Below, piece after piece: positions 7,957 to 13,752 of a stretch of 64,000 bases of DNA. How positions within the stretch are numbered: the stretch's first letter is position 1; each line of letters starts with the position of its first letter. A model generated the notes under the pieces. It worked only from the letters and a program-made list of their open reading frames with translations, was not told the DNA's origin and ran no database searches. Source of the stretch: Mycolicibacterium diernhoferi (GTDB lineage: Bacteria; Actinomycetota; Actinomycetes; Mycobacteriales; Mycobacteriaceae); contig NZ_CP080332.1 of assembly GCF_019456655.1 (NCBI RefSeq), positions 4,216,001 to 4,280,000 of the forward strand, given 5' to 3'. The position numbers and the translations under genes were made by a program.

Positions 7957-8412
7957 TCACGCCGAGGCGCGGTTCCCGTCGATCGGGGCAGGGCGTTTGT
8001 CCGGCAGATCACGGAACACCGAGGCCGCCAGGATCCGCTTCTGCTGACCGTTCTTGGTCGGCGTGATCCGGAGGTTGACCGACGCGCCGTGGTCGCTCGG
8101 CCGGATGTAATAACACTCGTCGGTCTCGGGACAGTAGATACAGATTGCGTCGACGGCGTCCTTGTCGATAGGTGTGCTGTGCACGCCGTGTCGATCGGTC
8201 CAGTTCGAACTCAGTTTGAGGGTGACCATGCCTCTCCGCATGGACCGATACTTCACCTGGATGCGGTGAAATGTTCCCGCTTTGTGCGCGACAAGGTCGA
8301 ACGGCGCGTGTTCAGTGGCAGGGAACAGAACGTCGAACCCCTTGGCCACGAGATCGGCGTGCGCTTTGGCGACGCCGAGGTCGCCCTTGTCTTTGGTGTG
8401 ATGTTGAACCAT
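7957..8412 (-). CDS. PD-(D/E)XK endonuclease-like protein
   Basis: This 151-residue protein contains a compact PD-(D/E)XK-like core: a helix with KGDLGVAKAHADLVAKGFDV, then FDLVAH (Asp ~39), then HRIQVKYRS (Gln ~52, Lys ~54), giving D-x12-QxK. This matches the PF11645-type small endonuclease-like proteins, often seen as orphan genes near mobile DNA. The middle has a CIYCPETDECYYI segment with two Cys. The gene stands alone, with its 5' end ~50 bases from tRNA-Arg on the opposite strand, in a block absent from the M. tuberculosis order. Role unknown; possibilities include a solitary nuclease, a toxin-like protein or a remnant of a mobile element. Confidence 0.75.
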   Translation of the reverse strand: MVQHHTKDKGDLGVAKAHADLVAKGFDVLFPATEHAPFDLVAHKAGTFHRIQVKYRSMRRGMVTLKLSSNWTDRHGVHSTPIDKDAVDAICIYCPETDECYYIRPSDHGASVNLRITPTKNGQQKRILAASVFRDLPDKRPAPIDGNRASA

Positions 8413-10137: not shown

Positions 10138-10881
10138 TCAGAGCGCGGCCCAGAACCGGTTGAGCGCCGCGGCGCCACGGGCCGGATCTTCGATCATCCA
10201 CCAGTGCCCGAGCCCGTCGAGAACCTCGGTGCGGGCGCCGGCCCGGTCGGCCGCACGGCGGCGCATCTCATCGGTTCCGACGAAGGTGTCCGCGGTCGCC
10301 AGGATGGACAGACCCGGGCGTTCCGCTGCGGCTTCCAACGCGGCGCCGGCCTGCGCGATGGCCGGCTGAGCCGCCGAGCGGTACAGCCGCAGGATCGCCG
10401 CGGCCATATCGTCGTTCTGCGCGGCGACCAGGGCCGGGGCGATATCGGGGCCGACGCCCATCCCTGCCACCATGGCGACCCGTTCCTCCGGCGTTCCCGC
10501 CATCATCGCGGCCACCGCCTCTTCACCCGCGCCCGGCGTCTGCCAGATCTGCGCGAGGTCGTGCCACACGTAGTCGGGGTCGAAGACACCGACGATATCG
10601 CTGGCCCAGCTGCGGATCAGGTCAGGCCGGTGCATGGCGACGTTGAGCACGTGACCGCCACCCCAGTCGTGCCCGACCAGGTCGACAGGGCCGTCGAATC
10701 CCTCAAGTTCCCGTTCCAGCCAATCCCGGTAGGCCAGGTAGGTCGGGTCGAAACCCGCGGGCAGCGGCGCGCCGAATCCCGGAGGTGACAGCGTGACGAC
10801 ATCGTCACGCCCGAGCGCGCCGATCAGTGGACCCCAGATGGCGCTGGTTTCCGGATTGCCGTGCACGAAGACGACCGTCAT
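10138..10881 (-). CDS. alpha/beta hydrolase
   Basis: This is a 247-residue alpha/beta-hydrolase fold protein. It begins TVVFVHGNPETSAIWG (oxyanion HGNP), has a nucleophile elbow GHDWGGG with Asp rather than Ser as the nucleophile (~residue 96), and a late His in DGLGHWWMIEDP. An Asp nucleophile with HGNP is typical of haloalkane dehalogenase / epoxide hydrolase-like enzymes. I chose the ATG at 10881 (MTVVFVHG); the possible upstream start at 10902 adds only MSCHHDR. Expressed separately from, or weakly linked to, the SDR downstream. Substrate unknown. Confidence 0.88.
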   Translation of the reverse strand: MTVVFVHGNPETSAIWGPLIGALGRDDVVTLSPPGFGAPLPAGFDPTYLAYRDWLERELEGFDGPVDLVGHDWGGGHVLNVAMHRPDLIRSWASDIVGVFDPDYVWHDLAQIWQTPGAGEEAVAAMMAGTPEERVAMVAGMGVGPDIAPALVAAQNDDMAAAILRLYRSAAQPAIAQAGAALEAAAERPGLSILATADTFVGTDEMRRRAADRAGARTEVLDGLGHWWMIEDPARGAAALNRFWAAL

Positions 10882-10905
10882 TCGGTCATGGTGGCACGAC
10901 AACGC

Positions 10906-11283
10906 TCAGACCGCGGAGGCGGACAACTCCTCGAATGCGGCGTCCAGGGTCGGGCGGATCGTCAGGAACGCCGCCAACCCCACCAACTCGAGCGGACGAC
11001 GCGTCACCGGTCCGTCGGCCACCACGACCAACGGAACATCCTCGGGAAGCCGCTCATGGGTCTCCACCAGCAGTGACATACCGCACGAGGCGAACATGGA
11101 GGTGTCGGTCAAATTCACGATCACCGCGGTCGGTTGCTTCTCCAGAGCCGTGGCGACGAGCCGTTCCAAGTCGGGAGTGGTGAGCATGTCGACGACACCG
11201 GAGCAGTTGATCACCACGGTCGTGTCGTGCCATTCCTGGGCGCACACCAGGGTCGATTGGCTGGATACGAACTGGTCAGACAT
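10906..11283 (-). CDS. STAS-domain anti-sigma factor antagonist-like protein
   Basis: This 125-residue single-domain STAS protein has VVINCSGVVDMLTTPDLE and VIVNLTDTSMFASCGMSLLV. In SpoIIAA/RsbV-type antagonists the conserved DSSG holds the Ser phosphorylated by the anti-sigma kinase. Here the stretch reads ASCG, with Cys (~67) in that position, so ordinary kinase/phosphatase switching may be lost or changed. The gene is divergent from a phytochrome with a SpoIIE/PP2C phosphatase output, the enzyme class that dephosphorylates STAS antagonists, so the two are probably functionally linked. Start at 11283 (MSDQF) is preferred over the upstream in-frame start at 11319. Confidence 0.85.
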   Translation of the reverse strand: MSDQFVSSQSTLVCAQEWHDTTVVINCSGVVDMLTTPDLERLVATALEKQPTAVIVNLTDTSMFASCGMSLLVETHERLPEDVPLVVVADGPVTRRPLELVGLAAFLTIRPTLDAAFEELSASAV

Positions 11284-11490
11284 TCGGAAACCTCGCGGAA
11301 CCGTCGTTTCGGGGCGCATTGTCTCGCGGGCTGCGGCTCAACCGGACAAACAAGAACGCTGATCTATGCGCTCGAGACTACGGCAATCGGCCTGTCGCCG
11401 TGACCTGTCGCGCCGATGGCATGGCACGCTCGAGTTTGAAATCTGATCCCACGCTCACCAGACGCCGCGTCACAACCTGGGGGTATCGCC

Positions 11491-13752
11491 ATCTCGCGTC
11501 AAGACGCCGACGGCACCGTCGATGGACTGCTTCCCGTCGGCACGCCCATCGATCTCGACAACTGCGCCCGGGAGCCGATCCACATCCCGGGCAGCATCCA
11601 GCCCCGCGGTGTGCTCGTGGTGGTCCAGGAGCCCGAGTTCGAGATCCGCCAGGTCAGCGCGAACGTGGCCGAGTTGCTCGGTCACTCGGTCGAGGAAGTG
11701 CTGGGTCGACACCTGTCCGTGCTGATCGGACCCGCGGAGGCCGACCGGATCACGCAGGCCGCGTCCGCGTTCGGCGATCTCCGCCAACGCAACCCGCTCG
11801 AGCTGGAGCTCTCCATCGGTGGCCAGATCCGGGCGTTCGACGCCCTGCTGCACCGCGAACCCGGCGGGGTGCTGCTGGTGGAACTGGAGATCGCCTACGG
11901 CGAGCGCCCGTTCTCGTTTCCCAACACGTATCAGGCCGTGCGCAACTCGGTCGAGGAACTCAACCGCGCGGCGACGACGACCGAGCTGTACGACACCACT
12001 GCCCGCGCGGTCCGCGATCTCCTGGGGTTCGACCGGGTGATGGTGTACCGCTACGACCAGGACTACAACGGCGAGGTCGTCGCCGAATGCAAGCGCGACG
12101 ACCTCAATTCCTTTCTGGGACTGCACTTCCCCGCCAGCGACATCCCCGCTCAGGCTCGGGCCATGTACGAGCAGAACTGGCTGCGCCTCATCTCCGATGT
12201 CGGCTACACCCCGGCGCCGCTGGTGCCGTCCACCGATCCGGCCACCGGCTCCCCACTGGATCTGACGCACGCCAGCCTGCGCAGCGTCTCCCCCATCCAC
12301 ATCGAGTATCTGCAGAACATGGGTGTGCGGGCATCGATGTCGATCTCGCTGTTGCGGCACGGCCGGCTGTGGGGGCTGATCGCCTGCCATCACTACGCCG
12401 GGCCGCATCTGCCGCCCTACGGCGCCCGCGCGGCAGCCGAATTCCTCGGCTCGACACTGTCTTTGCGGCTCGTCGACCGCTTCGATGACGATCAACTCCG
12501 GGAACGGCTGGCGGCGCAGTCCATGCTCGCGCACATCACCGCCGCGACGATCAATGACAGCGAACCGGTCGCCGCGGCCCTGCTCGGCACCCCCAGCGTG
12601 CTCGATCTGTTGCCCGCCGCCGGGGTCGCCGTCGACATCGGCGGCGAGTACCGCACCCAGGGGACCGTCCCGCCGGCGGAAGTCGTTGCCGCCGTGGCCA
12701 CCTGGGCCCGCGCCACCGGGGAGGAAACCGGCACCACCGAATGCCTGTCCCGCGAGCTACCCACCCTGGAGCTGGATCCGCAGGACACCGCCGGCGCACT
12801 CGCGCTGAACCTGCCCGACGACCAGTACGTGATCTGGTTCCGGCAGGAGGCGTTGCGCTCGGTCGACTGGGGCGGCGATCCGCACAACAAGGCCATCGCG
12901 GTGCAGGAGGGCGACGAGATACGGCTCAGCCCGCGGAAGTCGTTCGAGCGGTGGCGTGAAGTCGTCGACCAGTGTTGTGAACCATGGGGACCGATCCAGA
13001 TCGAGTCCGCGGAGATGCTGCGCGGGCATCTCGTCGAAGAGCTCTACCGGCGTACCCGAAGTGCGCTGCGGGTGGCCGACATCGTGCAGCGCAGCCTGCT
13101 GCCCGAGTCGATCCCGACCATCTCGAACTGGGATCTGTCCACCGACTACCGACCGGCGGTGGGCGGCCGGGTCGGCGGTGACTGGTATGACGCTTTCGTG
13201 CTGCCGGACGGCCGGCTGACGGTGGTGCTCGGTGACGTCGCGGGCCACGGCCTGGCCGCCGCCGGTGCCATGGCGCAGCTGCGCAACGCGCTGCGATCCC
13301 TGTTGTTCACCGGCGCCACCCCCGCGGACGCGCTGAGTCAGCTCAACGCGTTCAGCCGGCATCTGATGGCGCGGGCGTTCGCCACCGCGGTCGCGGTGCG
13401 CATCGATCTGGACAGCGGGCGCACCGAGGCGGCCTCCGCCGGTCACCTGATGCCCTACCTGACCGGCGGGCGCACCCCGGTGACGGCGGCGCCGATCCGG
13501 CTCTCCCCGCCCATCGGGGTCAAGGGCGGCAGCTACGCGCACAGTGAGTTCGTCCTGGAGCGCGGGCAGGGTCTGGTGATGTTCTCCGACGGGCTGGTCG
13601 AGCGGCGCGACGGCACCATCGACGACGGGCTGGAGCGCCTTGCCCGGGTACTGGACCGGGCCGGTGATTCCGCCGCGCAGCAGATCTCCTCGGCAATGCG
13701 GCCCGAGGACACCGACGATGACGTCACCGTGATCACGCTGCGCAGACGCTGA
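11491..13752 (+). CDS. bacteriophytochrome with SpoIIE/PP2C phosphatase output
   Basis: This is a photoreceptor of PAS-GAF-PHY plan fused to a PPM/SpoIIE phosphatase. The chromophore Cys lies in NCAREPIHIPGSIQPRG (codon 11563-11565). The GAF domain has FPASDIPAQAR (~213) and LRSVSPIHIEYLQNMGV (~264). The PHY domain has the tongue motif SPRKSFERW (~480). The C-terminal phosphatase (~545-753) has VGGDWYDAF, LGDVAGHG, MFSDGLVE and DDDVTVI, with metal-binding Asp residues present. No ATG, GTG or TTG occurs in frame between the stop at 11437 and the GTG at 11611, which lies after the Cys. I therefore place the start tentatively at ATC 11491, seven bases after a GGGGG, one base from ATG; the conservative start is 11611 (713 residues). 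Predicted role: red/far-red control of a partner-switching cascade with the divergent STAS gene. Confidence 0.88.
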   Translation: MSRQDADGTVDGLLPVGTPIDLDNCAREPIHIPGSIQPRGVLVVVQEPEFEIRQVSANVAELLGHSVEEVLGRHLSVLIGPAEADRITQAASAFGDLRQRNPLELELSIGGQIRAFDALLHREPGGVLLVELEIAYGERPFSFPNTYQAVRNSVEELNRAATTTELYDTTARAVRDLLGFDRVMVYRYDQDYNGEVVAECKRDDLNSFLGLHFPASDIPAQARAMYEQNWLRLISDVGYTPAPLVPSTDPATGSPLDLTHASLRSVSPIHIEYLQNMGVRASMSISLLRHGRLWGLIACHHYAGPHLPPYGARAAAEFLGSTLSLRLVDRFDDDQLRERLAAQSMLAHITAATINDSEPVAAALLGTPSVLDLLPAAGVAVDIGGEYRTQGTVPPAEVVAAVATWARATGEETGTTECLSRELPTLELDPQDTAGALALNLPDDQYVIWFRQEALRSVDWGGDPHNKAIAVQEGDEIRLSPRKSFERWREVVDQCCEPWGPIQIESAEMLRGHLVEELYRRTRSALRVADIVQRSLLPESIPTISNWDLSTDYRPAVGGRVGGDWYDAFVLPDGRLTVVLGDVAGHGLAAAGAMAQLRNALRSLLFTGATPADALSQLNAFSRHLMARAFATAVAVRIDLDSGRTEAASAGHLMPYLTGGRTPVTAAPIRLSPPIGVKGGSYAHSEFVLERGQGLVMFSDGLVERRDGTIDDGLERLARVLDRAGDSAAQQISSAMRPEDTDDDVTVITLRRR

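Follow-up and report, generated by a model that had tools for sequence, protein, structure and literature searches.

Does a mycobacterium use a phytochrome to feed light into a sigma-factor partner switch? The question is raised by a locus of Mycolicibacterium diernhoferi in which a gene for a bacteriophytochrome-SpoIIE phosphatase (11491..13752, plus strand) is divergent from a gene for an RsfB-like protein of the STAS anti-sigma-antagonist kind (10906..11283, minus strand). Coordinates are those of the window, the whole 64,000-base stretch analysed, which covers 4216001-4280000 of the 5,998,503-base single-contig genome. The initial annotation of this DNA had described a PAS-GAF-PHY module fused to a SpoIIE phosphatase, with a STAS gene some 200 bases away; Pfam confirmed both genes, and the gap between them (11284-11490) is 207 bases long. 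It had also placed the remaining partners, a heme oxygenase and an RsbW-like kinase, elsewhere than beside the pair, and all matches listed for the genome to PF01126 (heme oxygenase) and PF13581 (RsbW-like) indeed lie outside 4216001-4280000, where proteins of both kinds are encoded. Its interpretation, light coupled to a sigma-factor switch, is partly supported: judged by sequence, the phytochrome-SpoIIE with its STAS neighbour is real and conserved and is probably a light input to partner switching, and the SigF network can be proposed as its likely target. We favour, with some confidence, a light-operated switch in which the phytochrome phosphatase acts on the RsfB-like STAS antagonist and, through it, on SigF.

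A phytochrome module joined to a phosphatase

The plus-strand reading frame, open from roughly 11440 and ending with the stop codon at 13752, encodes four domains, each over its Pfam cut-off: PAS_2 (11563..11892; 85.5 bits), GAF with the PASDIP motif (11980..12429; 61.7 bits), PHY with the WGG and PRKSF tongue motifs (12541..13056; 132.7 bits) and SpoIIE (PF07228, a PPM/PP2C phosphatase; 13204..13752; 135.7 bits against a cut-off of 25), in which the putative metal-binding Asp is intact. The three sensor domains follow one another in PAS-GAF-PHY order, at residues 27-136, 166-315 and 353-524 in the numbering of the 755-aa reading. The Cys encoded at 11563..11565 (DNCAREPIHIPG, plus strand), the putative biliverdin-binding residue of the phytochrome, is present in all 81 mycobacterial rows of the alignment and in all four others. 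No second PHY-domain gene was found in the 6.0 Mb genome, and the SpoIIE genes found there number three, this one included.

An AlphaFold2 model of the 755-aa protein, built on 36 sequences (mean pLDDT 80.7, pTM 0.57; tongue residues 458-490 below 50), has PsBphP as its first fold match, and each of the 50 matches listed is either a phytochrome module or a phytochrome fusion. In the model a single continuous helix (residues 503-538; 12991..13098, plus strand) runs from PHY into the phosphatase, a predicted counterpart of the helical linker between sensor and phosphatase in SpoIIE/RsbU-type PPM phosphatases.

The fusion is conserved well beyond this species. Scoring two candidates per genome, we found full-length or near full-length copies at ≥67% identity in 80 of 396 sampled genomes of the genus, the window genome included, at 81 loci; this count excludes a 36% copy in G159 and four genomes in which the gene is broken or partial. 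Holders among the at least 80 loci listed include M. asiaticum, M. intermedium and M. vaccae, and the close named relatives of the window proteins are mostly from Mycobacterium and Mycolicibacterium, with M. neoaurum, M. frederiksbergense, M. cosmeticum and M. canariasense among the names borne. All 81 loci agree in the Cys, in PASDIP, in those pocket His and Tyr residues that were checked and in the tongue residues, PRxSF included; L163 alone has Asn for the His of IHIPG, and the phosphatase Asp residues are invariant save for two C-terminal ones in the shifted copy of G260. The spacing from PRxSF to the GGD of the phosphatase is 77 residues in 80 of the 81 mycobacterial copies and in all four outgroup copies (Geodermatophilus, Klenkia, Parafrankia and a Nocardioidaceae metagenome-assembled genome), in which the pocket, tongue and PPM residues are invariant too. 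Further afield, 25 of 394 sampled genomes of the class carry the fusion outside the genus, at 28 loci.

Two side observations concern the same protein. In the QPHG motif behind the biliverdin Cys, Arg stands for His (residue 56 of P0001; window 11605-11607) in 81 of 81 mycobacterial copies and in two of the four others, and the aligned PDB relative has His. One genome, G202, carries two full-length phytochrome-SpoIIE genes (L187 and L225).

The STAS protein and its pairing with the phytochrome

The divergent gene encodes a single STAS domain (PF01740, 46.4 bits against a cut-off of 22.6) and likely starts at ATG 11283, giving 125 aa as in database protein P0122, rather than at 11319 (137 aa). 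Its best solved relatives are 4qtp (3.6e-19) and RsfB structure 8ih8 (4.6e-14), and it is 46% identical to the RsfB of its own genome. By these matches it is nearest to RsfB-type antagonists, in line with the antagonist class first assigned to it. The probable phospho-acceptor, Ser78 in the numbering of the 137-aa reading (codon 11086..11088, minus strand), as expected of an RsfB/RsbV-type antagonist, aligns with a Ser of 8ih8 and of SpoIIAA and is kept in 16 of 16 orthologues. It faces chain position 63 of 8ih8, which would be Ser61 if that chain has two additional residues; the reported RsfB phosphorylation site is given as Ser61 or Ser63 (PMC10950880; this and the other papers cited are represented by excerpts).

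A divergent STAS gene stands beside the phytochrome at 16 of the 81 loci (tblastn). In a quick tree, with the G260 row left out, these 16 form one branch with support 100 and a single change. Across the genus an orthologue (63-100% identity) occurs in the same 16 of 396 genomes, always beside the phytochrome; the next match has 54% identity, and any STAS match at E ≤ 1e-27 is found in 52 of 396 genomes (at most 11 candidates were scored per genome). The pair first annotated here is thus kept wherever its STAS gene occurs, but in one clade only, and the phytochrome-SpoIIE gene is far commoner.

Partner-switching genes elsewhere

The window genome holds a full partner-switching gene set, with phosphatase, STAS antagonist, kinase/anti-sigma factor and sigma factor. 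RsfB, RsbW2 and RsfR genes lie at 5.084-5.087 Mb, ordered as in M. smegmatis with the RsbW2-type kinase gene at 5.087 Mb, and RsbW1 and SigF genes at 1.624 Mb (SigF 472 bits against a cut-off of 372). At 0.49 Mb (L019 1480-3440) a relative of RsbQ (1wom, 2.6e-82) adjoins a PAS-SpoIIE phosphatase gene, which by sequence would be an RsbQ-RsbP-like pair.

Partner-switching genes lie near the phytochrome at 37 of the 81 mycobacterial loci, the 16 paired ones included. At nine loci an RsbW-like kinase gene is convergent with the phytochrome and just downstream; a STAS open reading frame (ORF) was called in eight of these, and one such kinase-STAS pair was checked in Pfam. An RsfR orthologue lies near and on the same strand at five loci, with a sixth 5.7 kb away in G341; in all six, rsfS and a response regulator follow, and a kinase is present in five. 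Five further loci have a GAF-SpoIIE-HATPase protein nearby (identified by eye; one is cut by the region edge), and L172 has one additional STAS gene. We roughly estimate, from counts in the window genome, that such a gene would be expected in 1-2% of random 10-kb stretches; given the kinship among the loci, the associations amount to about five separate ones.

Outside the genus, an HMM of our own building (E ≤ 1e-3) found a STAS gene adjoining the phytochrome or within about 1.5 kb at six of the 28 loci (L242, L243, L244, L250, L253 and L255) and none at the other 22, some of the 28 being cut by contig ends. At L242 and L244 the ATG of the STAS gene overlaps the stop of the phytochrome gene (ATGA), and HATPase matches to such an HMM accompany L243, L250, L253 and L255. 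Pfam confirmed ten of ten proteins tried, namely six STAS proteins, two HATPase_c_2 proteins (L250, L253) and two heme oxygenases (L238, L250); the STAS protein directly behind the phytochrome of L243 is not among the ten.

A proposed light-operated switch

The domains, the invariant residues, the fixed spacing, the conserved pairing and the genes for the remaining parts are seen in the sequences, and from them we infer the following course. Chromophore loading would bind biliverdin at the Cys of codon 11563, and red and far-red forms would interconvert; the change would be transmitted through the helix of fixed length to the SpoIIE phosphatase. The RsbW2-type kinase encoded at 5.087 Mb would phosphorylate Ser78 of the STAS protein, and the phosphatase would strip the phosphate in one of the light states, which would set the sign of the light control. 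Unphosphorylated STAS protein would then bind an anti-sigma factor, most likely RsbW1, and release SigF as the output. The light input would stand beside the RsfR input and the RsbQ-RsbP-like input as a third phosphatase input. A wider version, in which the whole phytochrome phosphatase family (80 of 396 genomes, about a fifth) serves the general stress response under SigF as a red/far-red input and one clade has gained a dedicated RsfB copy, is put forward more tentatively.

Several observations weigh against this scheme. The genomes are related, so that the counts are not independent. The phytochrome falls short of the NCBIfam BphP equivalog NF041576 (331.9 against 1040 bits, over profile positions 6-513 of 622), a cut-off made for one kind of BphP, and the STAS protein falls short of TIGR00377 (ant_ant_sig; 49.3 against 53.45 bits), as does the genome's own RsfB (51.9 bits). 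The present data yield no direct link between the STAS protein and SigF. With GTTT-N15-17-GGGTA as the SigF-type promoter consensus, the 82 rows scanned, of 85, have no exact match within 500 bases upstream of the Cys codon; all loci together contain 13 exact matches. At E ≤ 1, PF01126 found no heme oxygenase in 36 of the 80 phytochrome genomes, and these 36 include 14 of the 16 STAS-bearing ones. Lastly, the divergent STAS gene is absent from 65 of the 81 loci, where the phosphatase must mostly target something else.

This last observation, with the confinement of the STAS gene to one clade, would fit a phosphatase that works mainly on RsfB, the divergent STAS gene being a late, clade-specific extra or a mere neighbour; other local genes are syntenic in close relatives too. 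However, all 16 loci keep the pair, whereas the alpha/beta hydrolase gene adjoining the STAS gene is close by at only seven of them, and with at most 11 candidates scored per genome no orthologue apart from a phytochrome was found in the 396 genomes. We regard a phosphatase directed mainly at RsfB as distinctly improbable.

A stronger competitor, though still unlikely, keeps the light-controlled phosphatase and its STAS substrate and differs in the output: the STAS protein would target some regulator or sigma factor different from SigF, or would only tune RsbW2 in competition with RsfB. Its identity to RsfB is only 46%, the genome encodes a third RsfB-like STAS protein (L024), and the kinases that other lineages have close to the phytochrome share only 33-42% identity with the window genome's own RsbW2. 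On the other side, the clearest RsbW-type proteins of the genome are those at the RsfB and SigF loci, and in six genomes the phytochrome lies in or near an rsfR-rsfS locus.

Chromophore supply

The window genome has one PF01126 heme oxygenase, encoded outside the window. Among the 81 loci, a heme oxygenase gene lies near the phytochrome at 21, divergent and upstream at 16, upstream on the same strand at 2 and downstream at 3. By genome, 44 of 80 with the phytochrome have a heme oxygenase against 77 of 316 others, with 36 having the phytochrome only and 239 neither (Fisher p 3e-7, uncorrected for kinship). Within the STAS clade it occurs only in the window genome and its sister G316. The 14 members in which it was not found could be taken to mean that the clade does not sense light, the protein being an apoprotein or a temperature or redox sensor with the same phosphatase output. 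We consider this very improbable: the window genome and G316 do have the enzyme, and the Cys and the pocket residues checked are invariant in all 81 rows whether a heme oxygenase was found or not.

A separate observation concerns a 101-aa gene of the ABM fold (PF03992 in the L158 copy), which lies just downstream of the phytochrome at 14 STAS-clade loci (L148-L161). It is present in all clade members without PF01126 and missing from the two with a heme oxygenase and from the other 65 mycobacterial loci; because the window genome and G316 are sisters, this counts as one event. A role as heme oxygenase substitute was considered and is not supported, there being no IsdG or MhuD named among eight PDB matches at E ≤ 1. 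By eye, we did not see the IsdG-type Asn/His pair in the protein.

Relation to known systems

The closest parallel is the RsfR-RsfB-RsbW2-RsbW1-SigF switch of M. smegmatis, in which RsfB is phosphorylated on Ser63 by RsbW2 and dephosphorylated by the receiver-PP2C protein RsfR; in its unphosphorylated form it acts on the anti-SigF factor RsbW1 and hence on SigF (PMC7693655, PMC10950880). Both systems have a PPM phosphatase with an N-terminal input and an RsfB-type STAS protein with one acceptor Ser, and the window genome has the same gene set. The input of RsfR is a receiver, however, whereas here it is a phytochrome, and unlike RsfB the STAS protein is a separate divergent paralogue without a kinase in its operon, the window containing no PF13581 match.

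As in RsbU and SpoIIE with their substrates RsbV and SpoIIAA, an N-terminal domain would drive the PPM domain through a helical linker, with a substrate of the STAS class (PMC12143880, PMC11418112). The sensor differs in being a phytochrome, a word with no occurrence in the excerpted text of PMC12143880. According to the proposal of that paper, crossing helical linkers allow PPM phosphatases to exchange one sensor domain for another, and the fixed 77-residue spacing fits this. With BphP and Cph1 kinases and PadC cyclases the protein shares a complete PAS-GAF-PHY module; unlike them, its output is SpoIIE. The fusion was first remarked on here as a departure from the usual phytochrome outputs, but as an output class it is already published: the legend to Figure 2 of PMC9587094 names SpoIIE/PPM phosphatase as a phytochrome output.

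In the sigma-B systems of Bacillus subtilis and Listeria, too, partner switching conveys light to a general stress sigma factor (PMC3019169). There, in contrast to the present locus, blue light acts through a LOV-STAS protein, and neither Bacillus nor Listeria yielded a phytochrome-like protein; the red-light effect in B. subtilis requires the phosphatase RsbP with RsbQ, and its receptor is described as "not unambiguously identified". Photocobilins (B12/biliverdin) are likewise biliverdin photoreceptors, and a STAS and SpoIIE network is predicted for them in Saccharothrix; they differ in having no covalent Cys linkage to biliverdin, and the network is a prediction (PMC10979010). Among the matches listed from the open literature, no title or opening of an abstract dealt with a phytochrome-SpoIIE with a STAS partner or with a mycobacterial phytochrome, which is weak evidence, as subscription papers are mostly uncovered.

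Some mycobacteria, Runyon's photochromogens, are classically known for making pigment in response to light. A review ties SigF to carotenoids, and the word photoreceptor does not occur in its excerpted text (PMC7755587). In the species that carry it, a phytochrome that feeds the SigF switch would be a concrete photoreceptor candidate; if the proposal is true, mycobacteria would have a named photoreceptor through which light affects traits under SigF control, carotenoids among them. The protein would also be a natural light-gated PPM phosphatase. With its own phytochrome, such a phosphatase would make the coupling of red light to a sigma factor, which in B. subtilis runs through a PP2C phosphatase and has no unambiguously identified receptor (PMC3019169), directly testable. 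It would also allow light to be used in probing the control of PPM phosphatases by sensor domains through helical linkers, a question left open by PMC12143880.

Gene start, intergenic region and neighbouring genes

The mechanically assigned start of the phytochrome ORF, GTG 11611, would drop the biliverdin Cys, which places the true start upstream. From the alignment of 16 orthologous regions the start is most likely the non-standard codon ATC 11491; database protein P0002 (755 aa) is compatible with a start at 11485. In these regions the codon behind a GGGGG or GGAGG box, here a Shine-Dalgarno-like GGGGG at 11479-11483, is ATT or ATC in 14 of 16, ATA in L149 and ATG in L153, and TCG CGT or a close variant comes after it. 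Eight of the 16 STAS-clade loci have no in-frame ATG, GTG or TTG between the upstream stop and the Cys; the remaining members could use a standard start, in some closer to the Cys. Outside the clade, each of the 64 readable mycobacterial rows (L226 excluded) has such a codon before the Cys. A non-standard start is probable in 15 of 16 clade members (window 11479-11499).

The divergent intergenic region (11284..11490) also carries a conserved C-N-TGGCA box, here CATGGCA at 11420-11426. It occurs once per intergenic region in 16 of 16 and is often lengthened to CCTGGCACTCTCGAG (window 11420-11434); with up to three mismatches the lengthened box has one match in the window, against 3.2 expected by chance.

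On the strand of the STAS gene, the alpha/beta hydrolase gene (10138-10902) begins four bases past the STAS end. It was considered as an RsbQ and rejected, its four weak PDB matches being mostly haloalkane-dehalogenase-like. Farther along, 7957-8412 encodes a protein of the PDDEXK_5 endonuclease family (155.8 bits), with related ORFs in eight other STAS-clade loci (cluster c14).

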